48,450 nucleotides of DNA from Streptomyces boluensis (GTDB lineage: Bacteria; Actinomycetota; Actinomycetes; Streptomycetales; Streptomycetaceae). Of this stretch, positions 30,639 to 40,401 are shown in pieces (the first letter of the stretch is position 1; the number at the start of each line of letters is the position of its first letter). Both the position numbers and the translations under genes were made by a program. A model generated the notes under the pieces. The model was not told where the DNA came from. It ran no database searches and was given only the letters and a program-made list of their open reading frames with translations. Location: positions 1 to 48,450 of the forward strand of contig NZ_JAAAHS010000012.1 in the NCBI RefSeq assembly GCF_009908195.1, in the 5' to 3' direction.

Positions 30639-31313
30639 TCAAGGGCGTTCCGTCGGCGGGGTCGTCGCTCGGCGTTCCGCGTACCGCAGCCAGTTCAGGT
30701 ACCACTGGGCGTAGGTCGTGCGGTCCTCTCGGGTGCGGGCCGCCGGGAGGACGCCCTCGCCGACGGCGCGTACGTCGTCCCACATGGTGCCGCGTTCGTC
30801 ACCGGTGACGGCGAGCAACGTGTAGTAGCCGCAGCCCTGTTCGCCGACGCAGAGGGTGCCGTCGGTCAGGGTGTCGGAGAGTTCTTCCCAACGCCGGTCC
30901 CAGGCCGCGTACTCGCGGTGCAGCCGGGTCTGCTCCTCGGCCGAGTCCCCGTAGTCGGCGGGGCGGGGCTCCAGCGCCTCGTGGGCGGCCAGTTCGTCGG
31001 TGTGCCCGGCGCGGAACGGGAGCGCTGCGCGCCGGGCCAGGGGGTCGTCGGGGGTGAGCGGGTAGAGGCCGTAGTCGGGACCCGCGCCGCCCCCGCCCAC
31101 GTCGAGGAGGAACGTGCGGTACTCGTGCGGCAGCGTGGCCCCGATGCGCCGCTCGGCCCGTGCGACCTCGTCCTCGGTGAGCACGGGACGCAGCTCGAAC
31201 CGGTGGCCGTGGCTGCCGTGCACAGCGCCGAACACCTCGTGCCAGTACGGTGCTTCGCGCAGGGCGAGCACACGCTCGCGCACCCCTGACCAGATGCCCC
31301 GGCCGTCGCTCAC
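30639..31313 (-). CDS. SMI1/KNR4 family protein
   Basis: This 224-residue protein has the SMI1/KNR4 (SUKH) fold: PVLTEDEVARAERRIGATLPHEYRTFLLDVGGGGAGPDYGLYPL, and later GTLCVGEQGCGYYTLLAVTG with the WDD following. SUKH proteins often act as immunity proteins against secreted nuclease toxins, but Streptomyces has many stand-alone members of unknown role, and no toxin gene lies nearby. GTG 31313 is preceded by GGGAGAGGGA. It sits 85 bases downstream of the kinase-Nudix gene on the same strand, so they may be co-transcribed. Confidence 0.87.
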   Translation of the reverse strand: MSDGRGIWSGVRERVLALREAPYWHEVFGAVHGSHGHRFELRPVLTEDEVARAERRIGATLPHEYRTFLLDVGGGGAGPDYGLYPLTPDDPLARRAALPFRAGHTDELAAHEALEPRPADYGDSAEEQTRLHREYAAWDRRWEELSDTLTDGTLCVGEQGCGYYTLLAVTGDERGTMWDDVRAVGEGVLPAARTREDRTTYAQWYLNWLRYAERRATTPPTERP

Positions 31314-31398
31314 CCTGCGATCCCTCTCCCGGCGCCGGGCCCCCTGGTCGGTCCCGGCCTGAACGCCGGTCACGGTACCGGCCCGCGCACACGGAACC

Positions 31399-32448
31399 TC
31401 ACCCCACCGGCACCCCGGCCTCCAAATACAGGGGGCAGCCCTGGCGTCTGGCGCGCAGGGCCCAGCGCAGTCGCTCGTAGCGCACTGGGGGCAGGAGACC
31501 CGCCGCCTCCTGTTCGGTGACGAAGCGGCAGGCGCGCAGTTCGGGGCCGGGGAGCAGGACGCGTTCGGTGGCGGTGCTGTCGAGGCGGCCGCCGTCGAAG
31601 AGGAGCCGCATGCCGCCGTATCCGGGGGGCTGCGGCGCCTCCCAGTCGACGATCAACAGGCGGGGCAGCCGGTCGAGTTGGATGCCGGTCTCCTCCGCGA
31701 CCTCGCGCACCCCGGCCGCGGCGGGTGCCTCGCCGGACTCGACGACTCCGCCGGGGAACTCCCAGCCCGCCTTGTACGTGGGGTCGACGAGCAGGACGCG
31801 GTCGTGTTCGTCGAAGAGGAGCACGCCGGAGGCGAGGGTCTCGGCGGTCGGTTCGGGGGTCTGCACGATGTCGCAGAGCCCGTTGTCCCCGGTGCGGACG
31901 ACCTCGGCGATGCGCTCGGCGGTCTCGTACGGGGTGAGGGCGCCGGTGTCGACGAGGTGCGCGTCGGCGCTCAGCCAGCCGGCCAGGGCGGTGCGGTACG
32001 GCTCGATCCGGGCGTAGGCCCACTGGCTCGTGCGGGCGGACGGATCGCCCTCTTTGCCGGTCCCCTGTGGTGCGGCTCGACCCGCTATTCGCTTGCGCAG
32101 GATCGTTTCCGCCGGGGTGAGCGCGACATGGCGTACGGCGATCCGCCGGGAGGCGAGGCCGCCGAAGATCTCGTCCCGGTACTCCTGGCGCAGCAGGGTC
32201 ATCGGGACCACGAGCACGCCGCCGACCTCGTGCAGCAGAGCGGCCGCGGTGTCCACGACGAGCCGCCGCCAGATCGGCAGGTCCTGGTGGTCGTCGACCT
32301 CGTCCAGGTGCTTGTGGGGCAACAGGTGACGCAACCCGCGGCCGATGACCTCGGGGTCGAAGAGCGTGCTGTCCGGGATCAGTTCGACAAGCTCCTGTGC
32401 GGCGGCGGTCTTCCCCGCACCGAACGCACCGTTGATCCAGATGATCAC
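31399..32448 (-). CDS. P-loop kinase-like domain fused to a Nudix hydrolase
   Basis: This 349-residue protein has two domains. Residues 1 to about 185 form a small-molecule kinase-like P-loop domain with Walker A GAFGAGKT (7-14), WRRLVVDTAAALL and VVPMTLLRQEYRDEI, and a lid with RKRIAGR and ARTSQWA. Residues about 210-349 form a Nudix domain with the box beginning GGVVESGE (233) and REVAEETGI. A bifunctional enzyme that phosphorylates a nucleoside or cofactor and hydrolyses a nucleotide derivative is plausible, but substrates are unknown. Either domain also occurs alone. GTG 32448 follows AGAGGGGGAA. Confidence 0.87.
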   Translation of the reverse strand: MIIWINGAFGAGKTAAAQELVELIPDSTLFDPEVIGRGLRHLLPHKHLDEVDDHQDLPIWRRLVVDTAAALLHEVGGVLVVPMTLLRQEYRDEIFGGLASRRIAVRHVALTPAETILRKRIAGRAAPQGTGKEGDPSARTSQWAYARIEPYRTALAGWLSADAHLVDTGALTPYETAERIAEVVRTGDNGLCDIVQTPEPTAETLASGVLLFDEHDRVLLVDPTYKAGWEFPGGVVESGEAPAAAGVREVAEETGIQLDRLPRLLIVDWEAPQPPGYGGMRLLFDGGRLDSTATERVLLPGPELRACRFVTEQEAAGLLPPVRYERLRWALRARRQGCPLYLEAGVPVG

Positions 32449-32569
32449 GGTTCCCCCTCTTCTCTTGGCCCACTGAGGCTTGCCCGCTCCACCCTGCCGG
32501 GAAAACCACGCCTGCGGGCCGGACGACGCGCGGGCCCCAGGACGCACGAGCCGCGGGCACGTGCCGGTT

Positions 32570-33079
32570 TCAGGCGCCCACGGTTCCGTCGACGCCCTCG
32601 CGCAGCAAGTCGGCGTGGCCGTTGTGGCGGCCGTATTCGAGCAGGACGTGCACCATGACCATCCGCAGCGAGACGTCCTGGTCCCAGCGTGGCTGATGGC
32701 CCGTCAAGTCGAGGGAGTCGGCGGCGCGTTCGATGCGCCGGGACGTCTCCACCTCGGCCCGCCAGGCGGTGAACGCCTCGGCGCGGGTGGCGTCGCTCGC
32801 GTCGTAGGCGGCCTGGAAGTCGATGCGGTCGGACCAGACCATGGGGGCGTCGTGGTCCTCGAACACCCGCCGGAACCAGGCCCGTTCGACCTCGGCGAGA
32901 TGTCGTACGAGGCCGAGCAGGGAGAGCGTGGAGGGCGGCATCGACCGCTCGCGCAGCTCCTCGTCGCTGAGGCCCTCGCACTTCATGGCGAGGGTGGCGC
33001 GGTGGTAGTCGAGAAAAGCCCGTAGCGTCTCGCGTTCGCTGCCGAGGCGGGGCGGGCCGGTGCGCGGGTCGCCGGTCAT
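32570..33079 (-). CDS. DinB family protein (DUF664-like)
   Basis: This 169-residue four-helix protein has the DinB motifs LGLVRHLAEVERAWFRRVF and VHVLLEYGRHNGHADLLRE. The conserved histidines (in LVRHLAEVE, and in the HNGHAD motif) form the presumed metal site. Streptomyces DinB proteins are often thiol-dependent enzymes using mycothiol; this one has no known substrate. ATG 33079 is favoured over an ATG six codons earlier because GAGGAG lies just before it. Confidence 0.88.
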   Translation of the reverse strand: MTGDPRTGPPRLGSERETLRAFLDYHRATLAMKCEGLSDEELRERSMPPSTLSLLGLVRHLAEVERAWFRRVFEDHDAPMVWSDRIDFQAAYDASDATRAEAFTAWRAEVETSRRIERAADSLDLTGHQPRWDQDVSLRMVMVHVLLEYGRHNGHADLLREGVDGTVGA

Positions 33080-33163
33080 CGGGTGCTCCTCGTCCATGCC
33101 TGGCCGTGCGGGTGGCTGACCGGGACAGTATCCACGGCGCCCGTACGCCGCCGCCTCGGTCCC

Positions 33164-34762
33164 CTACGGGTAGAGCGCCTTGACGTACGCGAAGCGTCCC
33201 TTGTCCGCGCCCGGCCGGTGCAGTCGGACGAGGGCCATGGGGCGGTCGACGGGCTCCCCGGTCTGCTCGTGGAAGGCGATCTCGCCGGTGACTCCGCGTA
33301 CAACGTTGCCGCCGTTGAGCTGGCCGAGCTCGGCGCGCACATCGGCGGCAACGTCCTTGCTGCCCGGGTAGTTGGAGTACGCGGCACGCGCCGCGCGGCC
33401 CACCGCGAGCACCGCGTCATGGCCGAGCATGGCCTGGCCGTCGGCGAGCGCGTCGGGGGTGCCGCCGCGCGCCGCCAGGTAGTCCCGCTCGAACTTCGGG
33501 TACGGGCTGTTCGCCCCGGTGCCGTAGACCCTGGCCGCCACCTCGGGGTGGGTGAACGCCGTGTAGAGGACCCGCATGCCGGAGGCGGCCCAGCGTTCGT
33601 CGAGGCTCTTGAGTTCCTCGCTGTGGGAGGCGCCGGTCGTGTCGAAGAAGACGCCGACCGCGCTCGAACCCGATACGAGGGTGACCGCGCAGCGCCGGCC
33701 GGCCTCGCCCGCGGCCTCGATCAGGCTGCGGATCTCCCGGCCGCGGCCCGCGAAGAACACCGCGTCGGGCCGTTCCTCGCCCTTGCGGCAGATCTTGTCG
33801 GCGGCGCCGTGCAGGGCGTTGCCCGCGCCGCCGCCCGCGTCCGACCAGACGGGGATGAAGCCGGGGCGTACGTGCACGCCGCGTTCCTTCGCGGCCTTGC
33901 CGAAGGTCTCGCGCAGCGCCTTGTTGTAGCCGTCGTCCTCCTTGCGGTCCCACACCACCTGGACGTCGTAGTCGGCCTTGCGGCCCGCTTTCTTCGCCGC
34001 CCGCTCGGCGGCGTCCTGTTCCTGTTTGAGGTAGGCGGCGGCCGCCTGCGCCTGGTCGCTCGCGGGGAACGAGACGCGGAAGAAGCCGGCCCGTGAGGAG
34101 ACGAACTTGTCGGCGGCGACGGTCGCCCCGACCGTCGGCACCCCGGCGTCGCGCAGCCGCCGTACCGCCGCGAGCGTACGGCTGTTGCTCTGCCCGACGC
34201 CCACGACGGCGGCGAGCCGCTCGGTCTTGCGGCGTTCCAGGACGGCGTCGGCCACGTCGTCCGCGTACGCGTCGCCGTTGCCGGTGTTGGCGAGCAGCAG
34301 CCGGATCCGGGGCCGGGTGCCGCGCTCCTGGTTGACGGTGCGCTGGGCGAGGTAGGCGCCGGTGACGGCTTCCAGGGTGGCTTCCTTGCCGCGGTCGCCG
34401 GAGCCGCCGGACATGGACTCCATGTGCACCACGGTGACGGGTTTTTCGTCCGCCACGCGCTGGTTCTCGCGGTGGATCTTCTCGCTGATCCCGGCGAGGC
34501 CGGGGAAGGCGTGGCTGCCGTCGCTGAGGCCGACGCACTGGCCGTCGTCGGTCTCCGCGATGCCCTCGGCGCACTCGGGCGGGGTGAGCAGTTCGTACGC
34601 CACGTATCCGGCGACGAGGACGAGTACGAGGGCGACGACCGCGGCGCGCAGTCCGCGCCGCTTCGGTGCGTGCGGCGGATCGATCAGGGGTTGCGGCACC
34701 GGGTCCGACTGCCGTTGCCCCACCGGCAGTTGCTGCCCGCGCTCGTCCGCGTTGCTGTTCAC
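33164..34762 (-). CDS. Membrane-tethered periplasmic-binding-protein-like receptor
   Basis: This 532-residue protein has a hydrophilic cytoplasmic N-terminus (about 38 residues), one membrane helix at about 39-58 (RAAVVALVLVLVAGYVAYEL), then a large extracytoplasmic domain. That domain has the two-lobed type 1 periplasmic-binding-protein fold of amino-acid (LivJ-like) receptors: LAAVVGVGQSNSRTLAAVRRLRDAGVPTVGA, FFRVSFPASDQAQAAAAYL, DAVFFAGRGREIRSLI and ALADGQAMLGHDAVLAVGRA. Two cysteines follow the helix (PPECAEGIAETDDGQC) and may form a disulfide. No transporter permease is adjacent; its start overlaps the stop of a large P-loop ATPase gene. It therefore probably senses a ligand for that ATPase rather than feeding a transporter (inference). 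Confidence 0.82.
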   Translation of the reverse strand: MNSNADERGQQLPVGQRQSDPVPQPLIDPPHAPKRRGLRAAVVALVLVLVAGYVAYELLTPPECAEGIAETDDGQCVGLSDGSHAFPGLAGISEKIHRENQRVADEKPVTVVHMESMSGGSGDRGKEATLEAVTGAYLAQRTVNQERGTRPRIRLLLANTGNGDAYADDVADAVLERRKTERLAAVVGVGQSNSRTLAAVRRLRDAGVPTVGATVAADKFVSSRAGFFRVSFPASDQAQAAAAYLKQEQDAAERAAKKAGRKADYDVQVVWDRKEDDGYNKALRETFGKAAKERGVHVRPGFIPVWSDAGGGAGNALHGAADKICRKGEERPDAVFFAGRGREIRSLIEAAGEAGRRCAVTLVSGSSAVGVFFDTTGASHSEELKSLDERWAASGMRVLYTAFTHPEVAARVYGTGANSPYPKFERDYLAARGGTPDALADGQAMLGHDAVLAVGRAARAAYSNYPGSKDVAADVRAELGQLNGGNVVRGVTGEIAFHEQTGEPVDRPMALVRLHRPGADKGRFAYVKALYP

Positions 34763-36792
34763 CACGGCTCCTTGTTGTACTGCTGGGCCTTCTGCAGCAG
34801 GGTCGCCACCCAGACGACGTCGCCGGTGTGCGCGGCGGCCAGGGTGTTGAAGCGGGCGTTGATCTCCGGGTACAGCTCGGCGTACGGGTCGGCCAGCGGG
34901 TCCCCGTAGGGGTCGCCTACCAGGTCGGTGGCCGGGTCCTCGGGTGGCTCGGGGCTGATCCAACTGGCCGCGAGCAGCCGGGTGATGGTGCGCAGGCGCG
35001 GGCCGACCGAGTCGTCGTTCAGGTGCCGTACGAGCGCTTCGTACCGTCGCCAGGGCCGGCGTTCGCCCTCCTCGGCCGGGGGCAGCGGGGCGCGGCGCAG
35101 CCGGCACAGCTCGGCGCACCAGTCGTGTACGTCGCCGGTCTGGAACTTGTCGTCCAAGTAGGCGGCGGCGAAGGGGAGTTCACCGAGAGCGAGGGCGTGG
35201 TAGGCCTCCGCCGCCTGGTCGCCCCGTTCGCGCGCGGCGGCGCGGCGGCGGGCGTGTTCGTCCCCGGGTGTGTCGAGGTCGCCGAGCAGGAGGCGCCGCA
35301 GGACGGGGTGCGGGACGCCGGGGCCGCCGTCGCGGTCCTCGTTGCCGGTGTCGATGTGCAGGGTGCGCAGCGGGTCGGAGCAGAACGCGAAAAGTCCGGC
35401 GGGCGGTCCGGCGACGCCGTCGGGGGTGCCGCCGCCGACGAGTGACTCGGCGAGGTCGGGGGCGACGGCGGCCTGTTCGAGGATGCGGCGCAGCTCGTGC
35501 GGGACGCCGAGCGGCAGCAGCCGTTCCAGCAACTCGGCGCTGTGCGGGCCGGGTTCGAGGACGGCACGCAGCCGTTCGTCCCAGGGTGCGGTGGCGCCGC
35601 AGTCGAGCATCCGGGCGAGGACGTGGGTGGTGGCCGCCGGGTGACCGTGGGTGAGGGCGTGCACGATCCAGCCGAGCCAGCTCACACCGACGACCCTTGG
35701 CACCGGTGGGCCGGTGCGGGAGAGCACGGCGTCGAACACTTCCTGGGCCTGTTCGCGTACTTCGGCGAGGGTGAGGTCGCGGAGCCTGCCGAGCAGCCGG
35801 CCGTCGTCCAGCGGCTGCGGCTCGAACGGGCGGCCCGGCTGCCAGCGGCCGAGCGCGGTGGGGCCTGGCTGGGGTGCGGCGTCGGGGTAGCTGCCGGTGG
35901 TGGCGAACACGACGAGCGGGTCGCCGGGGTGCGGGGTGCGGGCGGCGTCGAGGAGTTCGAGGAAGCGGCGGCCGAGCGGGTTGTCGACGTTGTCGAGGAG
36001 GACGAGGCAGCGTGCCGCCCAGGCCTTGCCGTCGTAGGCGCGTACGAGGTCGGTGAGGAAGGTGTCGAAGATCTCCCGCTCCGCGCGGGGCTGGCCGCCG
36101 CGCTCGGCGACGTGGTAGTCGCTGCTGACGGCGACGAGTTTGTCGAGGGCCGAGACGGTGGACGTGATCCGTTCGCGGCTGCCGAGCGCGGCCCGCAACC
36201 GGCCCCAGGCCCTGGTCCGTTCGGCCAGGGGTATGAGCTGGAGCACTGCGGTGGCGAGCGGCGGCAGGCCGACCAGGGGGCCGGTGATGTGACCGATCTC
36301 GATGGCAGTGGCGAGGCGGCGGCCGAGCGGGATGGCGAGCGCGTCGGCCATGGCGCGCCGGGCGTCCTCGCGGCCCAGGTGGCCGACGGGCACGGTGAGC
36401 GCCTTGCGGGTGAGTTCGTAACCGCGCAGGGCGAGGTGCGGCGGGCTCTCCCTGCGGGCCTGCAGGGTGAACGCCACTTCGTGCAGCACGTCCACGGGCT
36501 GCTTGTCGCCGTGGGCGAACCGCGCCAGGTCGAGGTGGACCATGGGCAGCAGTGCGGCGCTGGCCGCGAGCGCGTCGAGCAGGGTGGTCTTGCCGCTGCC
36601 GCGCGGGCCGAGGACCAGCGTGAAGGGCTGCGCTACGGCGTCGTCCGCGTGACCGGTGTGACCCATCCGGCCCGCGCGGCCCGTGCGGTGCGCGCGTGCG
36701 GCGGCCTCGTGCCGTCGGGGCAGGACGGCGCCCTTCAGGTACGTCAGCACGGCCTGGTCCCGTATCGACCGGCCCGCCCATTGCTTGGGCAT
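34759..36792 (-). CDS. Large P-loop (AAA/STAND-like) ATPase paired with a receptor
   Basis: This 677-residue ATPase has Walker A GPRGSGKT (62-69) preceded by FTLVL, and Walker B CLVLLDNVDNPLG around D267. A sensor-like stretch (PLVVFATTGSYPD) follows the pattern of AAA/NTPase domains that also includes STAND NTPases. Residues 1-60 begin MPKQWAGRSIRDQAVLTYLKGAVL and are partly charged and disordered. The C-terminal half (about 380-677) is helical and contains LLERLLPLGVPHELRRIL and RLLLGDLDTPGDEHARRR, with no repeat class that I can name. The ATG at 36792 follows GGAGGAG. The stop overlaps the next gene (GTGA), coupling it to the membrane receptor. I do not recognise a named family. Confidence 0.8.
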   Translation of the reverse strand: MPKQWAGRSIRDQAVLTYLKGAVLPRRHEAAARAHRTGRAGRMGHTGHADDAVAQPFTLVLGPRGSGKTTLLDALAASAALLPMVHLDLARFAHGDKQPVDVLHEVAFTLQARRESPPHLALRGYELTRKALTVPVGHLGREDARRAMADALAIPLGRRLATAIEIGHITGPLVGLPPLATAVLQLIPLAERTRAWGRLRAALGSRERITSTVSALDKLVAVSSDYHVAERGGQPRAEREIFDTFLTDLVRAYDGKAWAARCLVLLDNVDNPLGRRFLELLDAARTPHPGDPLVVFATTGSYPDAAPQPGPTALGRWQPGRPFEPQPLDDGRLLGRLRDLTLAEVREQAQEVFDAVLSRTGPPVPRVVGVSWLGWIVHALTHGHPAATTHVLARMLDCGATAPWDERLRAVLEPGPHSAELLERLLPLGVPHELRRILEQAAVAPDLAESLVGGGTPDGVAGPPAGLFAFCSDPLRTLHIDTGNEDRDGGPGVPHPVLRRLLLGDLDTPGDEHARRRAAARERGDQAAEAYHALALGELPFAAAYLDDKFQTGDVHDWCAELCRLRRAPLPPAEEGERRPWRRYEALVRHLNDDSVGPRLRTITRLLAASWISPEPPEDPATDLVGDPYGDPLADPYAELYPEINARFNTLAAAHTGDVVWVATLLQKAQQYNKEPW

Positions 36793-37050: not shown

Positions 37051-37611
37051 ATGAACAGGACAACGAACGGCTTGCTGGCCCTGGTGTCCGGTCTGGCTCT
37101 CGCCGTGACCGGAACCACCGGCGCCCTCGCCGCCTCGGGGGACACTTCCGGCGCCGCCTCGGCGCTCACCGCACAAGCGCGGGAGGCCGGCCTCACCGCG
37201 CGGCAGGCCGCACAGCTCCAGGACCGCATCGACGCCCGCCTCGCGACCATGAAGACGCCCGCCGAGCAGGTGCGGTTCGATGAGATCCGTGCCGCCGACG
37301 GCACCCGCGTCACCTTCGGCGCCCGTGCGGCGGGCAGCTGCACGAGCGGTCGGCTCTGCCTGTGGGCGGGCGACAACTACGACCACGAGAAGCTCACGTT
37401 CTACAAGTGCGCGTTCCGCGACCTCAGTGACTACGGCTTCAACGACCGGCTGACCTCGCTGAAGAACTACCAGTCGAAGGGCACCTGGGCGAAGTTCTAC
37501 AACTGGGAGGGCCACTGGTCCCTCAAGTTCGGCAGCACCGCACCCCACAAGATCCCGGACCTGCAGGGCACGGAGTACAACAACGTGATCGACGGCGTAC
37601 GGGTCTGCTAG
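37051..37611 (+). CDS. Secreted peptidase inhibitor family I36 protein
   Basis: This 186-residue protein has an N-terminal signal peptide (basic MNRTTN, hydrophobic LLALVSGLALAVTGTTGALA, cleavage probably after LAAS or ALAA). A helical propeptide-like segment follows (about 35-80), then the I36 beta-gamma-crystallin-like domain (AGSCTSGRLCLWAGDNYD, FYKCAF, DRLTSLKNYQSKGTW, VIDGVRVC) with four cysteines for two disulfides. I36 includes the Streptomyces metalloproteinase inhibitor SMI, which blocks thermolysin-like secreted proteases. Many Streptomyces homologues have lost the strict inhibitory loop, so the target is uncertain. The gene is followed by a strong hairpin terminator. Confidence 0.9.
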   Translation: MNRTTNGLLALVSGLALAVTGTTGALAASGDTSGAASALTAQAREAGLTARQAAQLQDRIDARLATMKTPAEQVRFDEIRAADGTRVTFGARAAGSCTSGRLCLWAGDNYDHEKLTFYKCAFRDLSDYGFNDRLTSLKNYQSKGTWAKFYNWEGHWSLKFGSTAPHKIPDLQGTEYNNVIDGVRVC

Positions 37612-37679: not shown

Positions 37680-39338
<1,659 letters not shown>

Positions 39339-39592
39339 GATGTGGGAGAACCCTTCGATCGTCTTGTGCCGGACGTGCTGGACGGGTCGTGTTCGTCGAC
39401 GCCTGGGCGTGCGGGCCCGGGGGCGTTGAGGTAGAGCCCTATCCAGAGGCGGCGGGTTCATCCCTTCAAGTGCCGTATACATCACGGCAGTTGGCGCGTG
39501 GATACGGTTGATGCGCGGCGTGTCGGCCAACTTGGGGCGGCACCGGACGGGCGCGTTCCACGGTGGCCTGAGCGGTGCGGCGGCGGGCCGGG

Positions 39593-40030
39593 TCAGCTTT
39601 CGCCGACGGGTGCGCGGGTGCCCTGCGGACCGGTGCCGTGCCTGGTCGGCGGCCAGTCGGGGCGGTGCTCGGCGGGCAGTTCGGTGAGGGCCTGGGCGAC
39701 GGTGCCGCGGGCGGGTAACAGCTCCGTGCTGCCGGTCTGGGCGAGCAGTTCGGCGAGGCGTCGGCCGACTCCGGCCAGAATCAGTTTTCCGTCGCGCCGG
39801 TCGAGTAACCACCGGATGGCGAGCAGGCAGTTGAGCCCGCGCGAGTCGCAGAACGCGAGGGCCGTGACGTCGAGGACGAGATGCCGGTGCCCGGCCGCGA
39901 CGCTCGCGCCGAGCGCGCTGAGGAACAACTGCTCCACGGTGTGGTCGAGTTCGCCGCTGACGCGCAGCACCGCGGACTGTTCGCAACCGGACAGTTCCGT
40001 GATGGTCAGGCGGTGGGCCTGCGTGGACAT
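39593..40030 (-). CDS. STAS domain anti-anti-sigma factor-like protein
   Basis: This 145-residue protein has the STAS fold: VLRVSGELDHTVEQLFLSAL, HLVLDVTALAFCDSRGLNCLLAI and GKLILAGVGRRLAELLAQTG. In SpoIIAA/RsbV proteins the phosphorylated serine lies in D-S-[ST/RG]-G; here S is present in FCDSRGLNCLL, so regulation by phosphorylation is possible. The likely partner is an RsbW-like kinase. It lies 254 bases upstream of the glycine betaine synthesis gene on the same strand, suggesting stress-linked control, though no direct evidence joins them. ATG 40030 follows GGAGGAGCG. A Pro/Thr/Arg-rich tail ends the protein. Confidence 0.87.
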   Translation of the reverse strand: MSTQAHRLTITELSGCEQSAVLRVSGELDHTVEQLFLSALGASVAAGHRHLVLDVTALAFCDSRGLNCLLAIRWLLDRRDGKLILAGVGRRLAELLAQTGSTELLPARGTVAQALTELPAEHRPDWPPTRHGTGPQGTRAPVGES

Positions 40031-40085
40031 CGCTCCTCCGTCCGACCGACGGGCACCCCCGCCCGTCCGATACACCCGAACCGCC

Positions 40086-40099
40086 TTCACCTAGGTGAA
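40086..40099. promoter_or_regulatory. 14-base perfect palindrome TTCACCTAGGTGAA
   Basis: It is centred about 62 bases upstream of the STAS gene start, in the 433-base divergent gap (40031-40463) shared with the pentapeptide gene. Its AT content is high for the region and the symmetry is exact. Candidate operator; the cognate regulator is unknown. The remainder of the gap shows no gene. Confidence 0.5.
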
Positions 40100-40401
40100 C
40101 GGTGCTCGTGTGCCCCCTGGGGTTCACGGTGCGCCCCCACGCCCCGCGAATGCGCCTAGTGCGCCGTCGTACTCCCCCGCACGGCCAACTTACGTCCTAC
40201 TCGGGCGGGTTGGGGCGAGATCGCGTCAATCTCGGGCGAAACCCGCACGCTCCGTCCGTACGCGGGGCGCACGCCCCCTCCCGTACCGCCGTCGACGTAC
40301 GCCCGACGCCGTACCCACGACGACGCCCCCCGACCGCGACCACGGGCGTCGACCACGGCTGAGCAGCACCCGCCCCTGCGCGGGCGACGCGCTCCGTCGG
40401 G

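Follow-up and report, generated by a model that had tools for sequence, protein, structure and literature searches.

The published arrangement closest to the ATPase–receptor gene pair of Streptomyces boluensis described here is the EACC1–caspase system with a membrane-anchored periplasmic-binding protein (PBP). In System 4 of Kaur et al. 2020, as set out in the part of PMC7159879 consulted, an EACC1 protein is combined with a caspase protein, some versions of which carry a transmembrane helix and an extracellular PBP domain. Cyanobacterial metacaspases with an ANF_receptor domain likewise join an ANF-type receptor outside the cell to a signalling domain in the cytosol; that domain is a caspase domain, and the consulted part of PMC3501461 mentions no ATPase partner for the receptor form. 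PMC8195603, in the part consulted, covers caspase–receptor proteins and not the pairing of an ATPase with a receptor. The GlnH-GlnX-PknG system of Corynebacterium similarly uses an actinobacterial PBP for signalling, but GlnH, according to the consulted part of PMC9769921, is a lipoprotein that works through a four-helix membrane protein on a kinase. The pair examined here lies in a stretch of 48,450 nucleotides (contig NZ_JAAAHS010000012.1; hereafter the window), which is one entire contig (C24) of an 8.2-Mb genome.

The ATPase gene and the receptor gene (Table 1) form a two-gene unit that is conserved in other genomes and has fused counterparts; the predicted folds are those of an AAA+ ATPase and a Venus-flytrap receptor, and no LivH/RbsC-type permease adjoins the unit in the loci searched. 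We think it probable that the receptor senses a small molecule outside the cell and sets the state of a STAND-like ATPase inside, the two proteins acting as a split transmembrane sensor. The likeness to System 4 in the consulted part of PMC7159879 lies in the order of cytosolic domain, transmembrane helix, and extracellular PBP in actinobacteria, and one relative of the receptor, L198, is such a protein: a caspase–transmembrane helix–receptor protein (genome G008; PF00656, E 9.6e-11) encoded directly behind an EACC1 gene (PF19953, E 8.3e-22), the arrangement being at L198 3750–6473. L198 fits the published system, whereas the window pair does not, being without EACC1 or caspase and having a separate STAND-like ATPase as the partner of the receptor. 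The gene 5′ of the receptor gene is that of the ATPase, the next one (37051–37611, product I36-like) is on the opposite strand, and no caspase or cyclase match was found in either window protein. A PBP receptor paired with a STAND-like ATPase is absent from the account of System 4 in the consulted part of PMC7159879. In the open-licence literature we did not find a description of transmembrane signalling by such a split pair, nor any recognisable account of the pair itself, in a search in which several term sets were narrow and which subscription papers and preprints lay outside.

By fold and by family profile, the receptor is a type I periplasmic-binding/ANF-receptor protein of the HAAT class. 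Its AlphaFold2 (AF2) model (predicted local distance difference test score, pLDDT, 87.9; predicted template-modelling score, pTM, 0.85) comprises one membrane helix (residues 36–59) and a two-lobed domain (residues ~105–532). VIA-align ranked LivJ and LivK first (LivJ 4gnr: Z 35.3, root-mean-square deviation 2.6 Å, 340 residues), the top Foldseek matches were metabotropic glutamate receptor ectodomains and LivK (E about 1e-13), and a profile search of PDB sequences returned HAAT binding proteins as best relatives (E 1.4e-6). When searched as a single sequence against Pfam, the window receptor scored 23.1 bits with ANF_receptor, just under the curated cut-off of 25.4; a host paralogue (L015) lies above both relevant cut-offs (Peripla_BP_6, 45.1 vs 31.7; ANF_receptor, 33.3 vs 25.4), and family members matched ANF_receptor in 16 of 29 cases and Peripla_BP_6 in 15 of 29 at E 1e-3. 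The assignment is secure because these relatives match the profiles that the window copy just misses. Two cysteines behind the helix (C64 and C76) and two others (C325 and C358) are invariant in all 12 aligned receptors, and a looser juxtamembrane pattern, C-x(8-40)-C-x-G, is present in 134 of 150; the conserved cysteines are in keeping with an outside location of the receptor domain. No lipobox was seen by eye before C64 in the aligned sequences, and the fused forms described below imply a membrane anchor. Reading the ligand from pocket residues by hidden Markov model (HMM) alignment to HAAT proteins was given up: the invariant S192 falls in a stretch aligned with a serine of 4gnr and 4obb, and the other positions were ambiguous. 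A proline-rich receptor tail was also rejected as a shared docking site, its pattern fitting only 21 of 92 receptors (L241 counted as split).

Single-sequence searches of 150 same-genus genomes, with at most 7 ATPase and 9 receptor candidates scored per genome, found relatives of the ATPase in at least 32 genomes and of the receptor in at least 115. A census was then compiled of 150 receptor places in 111 genomes (145 among the matches listed and 5 of the host), each matching the receptor profile at E 6e-38 or better. At 91 of these places an ATPase-family gene lies directly upstream of the receptor gene on the same strand, and at 41 an ATPase-family domain precedes the receptor within one protein (including L241, which is broken over two frames), 6 of the latter assignments being based on fewer than 150 profile positions. 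Ten further receptors follow an N-terminal stretch of ~390–580 amino acids (stop to stop), like-sized but more diverged than the ATPase-family domain. A pooled alignment of 21 N-terminal stretches matched the ATPase profile (hhalign probability 98.6, E 1.2e-15); the pool also took in the helix-turn-helix (HTH) forms, the caspase form, and seven proteins already counted as fused, and the ten diverged cases are assigned from this pooled test and their looks. The remaining places comprise 3 HTH forms, 1 caspase form, 1 orphan, and 3 receptors at contig ends.

When loci in named genomes were instead collected by their ATPase, the receptor proved to be next door in 29 of 31, the other two holding an ATPase fragment only, one of them at a contig end. 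All but one of the 31 loci come from Streptomyces or other Streptomycetaceae (two of the genera we take to belong to this family), and the outlier is from an actinomycete metagenome-assembled genome. Across the phylum, the ATPase profile was matched in at least 6 of 396 genomes, five of them of this genus (3 candidates scored per genome), and in the family of the outlier genome in at least 2 of 81 (14 candidates per genome); the receptor profile, searched beyond the genus, was matched in at least 6 of 296 genomes, four of them of this genus (5 candidates per genome). Pairwise dN/dS values (NG86) against the relative in L149 were 0.33 (ATPase) and 0.31 (receptor), from which both genes look to be under purifying selection.

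Proteins with this fold may serve transport, and the receptor could be a solute-binding protein of the ordinary kind that feeds a distant ABC importer and is kept in the membrane by its uncleaved signal peptide, the neighbouring ATPase being unrelated. Its fold is that of amino-acid importer binding proteins and its best PDB sequence relatives are HAAT binding proteins, both of which speak for this explanation, as does the proximity (a few kb) of ABC ATP-binding genes to the pair at a minority of loci. Permeases were sought with three queries of the RbsC/LivH type, that class only, in a set of loci outside which the 85 later-fetched ones fall; they occur in 4 of 96 loci (L017, L081, L155, and L156, of which L081 and L156 are probably the same genome), and none adjoins the pair. 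In three of the four loci the permease gene is of the ribose type and is encoded on the opposite strand; in the host fused locus L017, two permease genes share the strand of the fused gene and lie about 4 kb upstream of it, separated from it by other genes. No LivH/RbsC-type permease frame is present in the window. The match in L118 covers the sugar-binding part of the query and was dropped from the count; by eye, a permease gene of another, sugar type does occur in that locus, some 3.7 kb upstream of the ATPase gene. Further evidence against an importer component comes from the 55 of 150 places at which a further N-terminal domain or region lies ahead of the receptor in the same protein, and from the missing lipobox. 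The importer explanation is already disfavoured, and we rate it as very improbable. An earlier note on this DNA, written from the sequence alone, had stressed that no permease stands beside the pair and had made its reading depend on adjacency conserved outside the strain and on relatives being free of a regular ABC permease neighbour; adjacency held in both directions of counting, and permeases of the class searched proved rare and in no case adjoined the pair.

The fused, caspase, and HTH forms provide the strongest argument that the split pair is a signalling device. The N-terminal 430–495 amino acids of seven fused proteins match the ATPase core (hhalign probability 98.2, E 4.6e-14). The host itself has a fused copy (L017, 5903–8782, contig C79), in which a pseudo-NTPase, a membrane helix, and the receptor share one frame of 959 amino acids; the ATPase profile, too, picks up the N-terminus of this copy (HMM E 2.7e-10). 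An NTPase fused ahead of the membrane helix should be separated from the receptor domain by the membrane, which makes a functional linkage of the split pair likely. In three other proteins (L133, L215, and L220), the receptor follows an HTH region and a membrane helix; HTH_31 matches L133 (E 9.5e-7), and no HTH profile matches L215 or L220 at E 0.01, both of which fall in one clade with L133. These HTH forms are possible one-component, membrane-bound regulators. In a FastTree phylogeny of the 150 receptors, the HTH forms make up a single clade and L198 is nearest to split-type receptors, the closest of which is from the same genome. Architecture changes 6 times on this tree (contig-end rows left out, fused kinds merged) or 15 times (all seven labels), with L241 labelled as split and long branches making the deep joins unsure. 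A wider view, to which we give slightly less than even credence, is that Streptomyces possess a family of modular single-pass Venus-flytrap receptors in which one outside sensor is connected to different outputs, either a separate STAND-like ATPase or, within the receptor protein, a pseudo-ATPase, caspase, or DNA-binding domain; the split form would then be a bacterial “NLR with an external receptor.”

Judged from its model and motifs, the ATPase appears to be an AAA+ protein of the Orc/Cdc6-STAND branch, and we call it STAND-like rather than a certified STAND member. Foldseek placed the STAND protein 6mfv first (E 1.9e-4). In VIA-align, the rows of Orc5 and Cdc6 lead at Z about 11 (Orc5, 11.4), and further rows include MalT (10.8), NRC4 (10.8), Dark (10.7), and CED-4 (9.7); the Orc, MalT, Dark, and CED-4 rows are all within Z 9.5–11.4, and the fold does not separate STAND from Orc/Cdc6. 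Neither window protein has a family above the curated cut-off in Pfam or NCBIfam: as a single sequence the ATPase reached 26.3 bits with AAA_22 (cut-off 27), and no curated STAND profile reached its cut-off (nSTAND_NTPase5, 17.1 bits vs 34). Among 23 ATPase members, matches at E 1e-3 were to AAA_22 in 11, AAA_16 in 8, and nSTAND_NTPase5 in 4. A search of PDB sequences with the ATPase profile gave generic P-loop matches only (midasin, IF-2, and HslU), and the C-terminal half is helical in the model, with no recognised sensor repeat or effector domain in the profile search. A GxP motif after the NTPase core is a feature of STAND and Orc/Cdc6 ATPases. In the 87 full-length split ATPases, its glycine is present in 85 and its proline in 78, and the Walker B aspartate is kept in 85. 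The earlier note had given the 677- and 532-residue frames with their four-base overlap, Walker A at residues 62–69, Walker B at D267, the single membrane helix, and the type 1 binding domain, all of which were recovered here. Its designation of a STAND-like ATPase agrees with fold and motifs, but the profile matches to AAA or STAND families at E 1e-3 come from a part of the members, and the window protein stays below the cut-offs.

Taken as a split sensor, the pair might work as follows. We infer an orientation in which a single helix anchors the receptor in the membrane, the N-terminus being cytosolic and the LivJ-like Venus-flytrap domain extracellular. The flytrap would bind a small molecule, perhaps an amino-acid-like one, and its closure would alter the packing of the membrane helices within a dimer or higher oligomer. 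Through a presumed physical contact, and thus in the outside-to-inside direction, this change could be passed to the co-translated STAND-like ATPase, which would go from an inactive to an active, probably oligomeric, state. As its putative output, the active ATPase would engage a downstream partner via the helical C-terminal half. In the fused relatives that position is occupied by a degenerate NTPase copy on the receptor chain, and in a few proteins by a caspase or HTH region. The ATPase resembles STAND ATPases such as MalT, 6mfv, NLRs, and CED-4 in its fold branch, Walker motifs, GxP motif, and helical C-terminal half. STAND ATPases carry their own sensor; here, by contrast, sensing would probably fall to a membrane receptor made as a separate protein, and the profile search recognised no effector domain in the window ATPase. 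Similarly, the receptor shares its Venus-flytrap ectodomain with metabotropic glutamate receptors, which are among its top fold matches. Those receptors have seven membrane helices and signal through a G protein, whereas the window receptor has one membrane helix, an N-terminus that would be inside, and no G protein.

Several observations weigh against the split-sensor interpretation. The ATPase model is of moderate confidence (pLDDT 75.8, pTM 0.71), and its second to eighth Foldseek matches are HslU, not STAND. The Walker A lysine of the 87 full-length split ATPases (K 65, A 11, R 9, gap 2) is replaced by alanine or arginine in 20 and falls in a gap in 2 more; with about a quarter of the split ATPases having lost it, the members cannot all be simple ATP-driven switches. 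In the seven aligned fused copies, the P-loop is lost in 7 of 7 and the Walker B aspartate, by eye, in 6 of 7; this and the lysine loss in split members indicate that not every member needs ATP turnover. The short profile matches behind six fused assignments were mentioned above, and genes judged by eye to encode ABC ATP-binding proteins occur a few kb or less from the pair in 4 of 65 and 5 of 32 loci. For 48 split pairs, the distances in the ATPase and receptor trees show a correlation of r = 0.82, compared with at most 0.15 in 1000 permutations, a value that is inflated by shared species ancestry; a co-evolution of ATPase and receptor trees is accordingly suggested as supporting evidence only. 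Some relatives are broken, the receptor of L137 and the ATPase of L150 being split over two frames and the ATPases of G119 and G198 containing a stop codon, and the host paralogue L015 has no ATPase beside it. A ribF-like gene is found upstream of the ATPase in L146, L148, L163, and L166, on account of which L015 may have lost its partner.

Some of the same features bear on the idea that the ATPase is a remodelling enzyme, an Orc/Cdc6- or HslU-like chaperone or unfoldase brought to the membrane by the receptor, and not a STAND switch. The leading Orc5/Cdc6 rows in VIA-align and the HslU rows that come after the first Foldseek match are what one would expect of such an enzyme; the lysine loss in 20 of 87 split members and the absence of the entire motif from the seven aligned fused copies fit a regulatory scaffold better than a motor, and we regard this explanation as improbable.

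The main rival to the split sensor concerns a biological-conflict or cell-death module, in which the receptor would report an extracellular cue of attack or kin and the ATPase would trigger a dormancy or death effector, as proposed for the EACC1–caspase systems. The two readings are compatible, the sensor stating how the pair acts and the conflict module what it acts for. That the receptor of L198 is fused to a caspase behind an EACC1 gene, an architecture proposed as a conflict system in the consulted part of PMC7159879, argues for a conflict role, as does a homologue of a host NACHT protein just upstream of the ATPase gene in 6 of 150 loci, contig C162 of the host included (a count for which the upstream reach in the 85 later-fetched loci is about 5 kb only). 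Against it, no caspase, NACHT, or other recognisable effector domain is above cut-off in either window protein, and PADLOC, whose output gives no cut-off, gave the ATPase nothing beyond P-loop matches (best 21.2 bits) and the receptor no match. With the window receptor as query, tblastn gave neither a plasmid match (E 1e-15) nor a phage match (E 1e-10). Moreover, the pair stands tail to tail with cytochrome c assembly genes (named by eye) in 16 of 65 loci (between L101 and L135), the largest shared-neighbour group and a stable chromosomal place. A search for a third gene conserved with the pair gave recurrent neighbours that, by eye, resemble chromosomal housekeeping genes, and the NACHT homologue was the only recurrent signalling neighbour noticed. 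On balance, we consider a conflict function unlikely, though it is the alternative that we take most seriously.

The usual picture of a STAND ATPase is of a soluble switch that does its sensing within the cell. In the present case a STAND-like ATPase seems to be connected to an external receptor, and the cytosolic partners of this one receptor family are of several kinds. The recurrent pairing points to a little-known way of sensing the surroundings that is not a transporter. With receptor relatives in at least 115 of 150 genus genomes, deorphanising one of them could open a common, unread sensing route in antibiotic producers. The family is also a warning that lookalikes of an “ABC transporter substrate-binding protein” need not be transport parts.

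Table 1. Coordinates of the ATPase–receptor pair and its sequence features within the window.
Feature	Position	Strand	Description
ATPase gene, 677 aa	36792–34759	minus	P-loop AAA+ protein, Orc/Cdc6-STAND branch (by model and motifs); C-terminal half mostly helical
Receptor gene, 532 aa, GTG start	34762–33164	minus	Short N-terminal tail, one membrane helix, and type I periplasmic-binding (Venus-flytrap) domain
Stop/start overlap GTGA, 4 bases	34759–34762	minus	Form typical of translational coupling
Walker A GPRGSGKT, ATPase residues 62–69	36586–36609	minus	
Walker B LVLLD, ATPase residues 263–267	35992–36006	minus	
GxP motif G-H-P, ATPase residues 383–385	35638–35646	minus	
Receptor membrane helix, residues 36–59	34586–34657	minus	AF2 model and hydropathy
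Juxtamembrane Cys-x11-Cys (C64, C76)	34535–34573	minus	Receptor family hallmark
Type I periplasmic-binding domain, receptor residues 105–532	33167–34450	minus	LivJ/LivK class

The start codon position of the ATPase gene is consistent with the relatives; that of the receptor gene is plausible, the N-terminal tails differing among relatives. From the end of the ATPase frame to the start of the receptor domain it is 11–176 nt in the full-length split pairs (87 in the census). The gene pair takes other forms at individual loci. In L137 (8058–9673), a close relative's receptor extends over two frames, reflecting a frameshift or a sequencing error, and L147 (4258–9563) has one ATPase gene with a receptor frame on each side. 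The lone host receptor of L015 (1096–2811, contig C338) is located beside a ribF gene. Another host locus (L018, 4274–11659, contig C162) encodes an NNH1-NACHT-LRR protein, then an ATPase-family protein in which the Walker A lysine is replaced by arginine (GRHGMGRT), then a receptor; among the NACHT homologues, Pfam was applied to this host copy only.

Beyond the ATPase gene, the divergent gene at 37051–37611 (plus strand) encodes a product with a peptidase-inhibitor I36 match that by eye is secreted. Downstream of the receptor gene and on the same strand, the region 30639–33097 (minus strand) includes genes for a SUKH protein, a NUDIX-AAA_33 fusion, and a mycothiol-S-transferase. The single frame at 37680–40127 (minus strand) contains two methyltransferase domains, by eye like glycine/sarcosine and dimethylglycine methyltransferases of betaine synthesis, and its homologue is also found upstream of the pair in L137 and L149.

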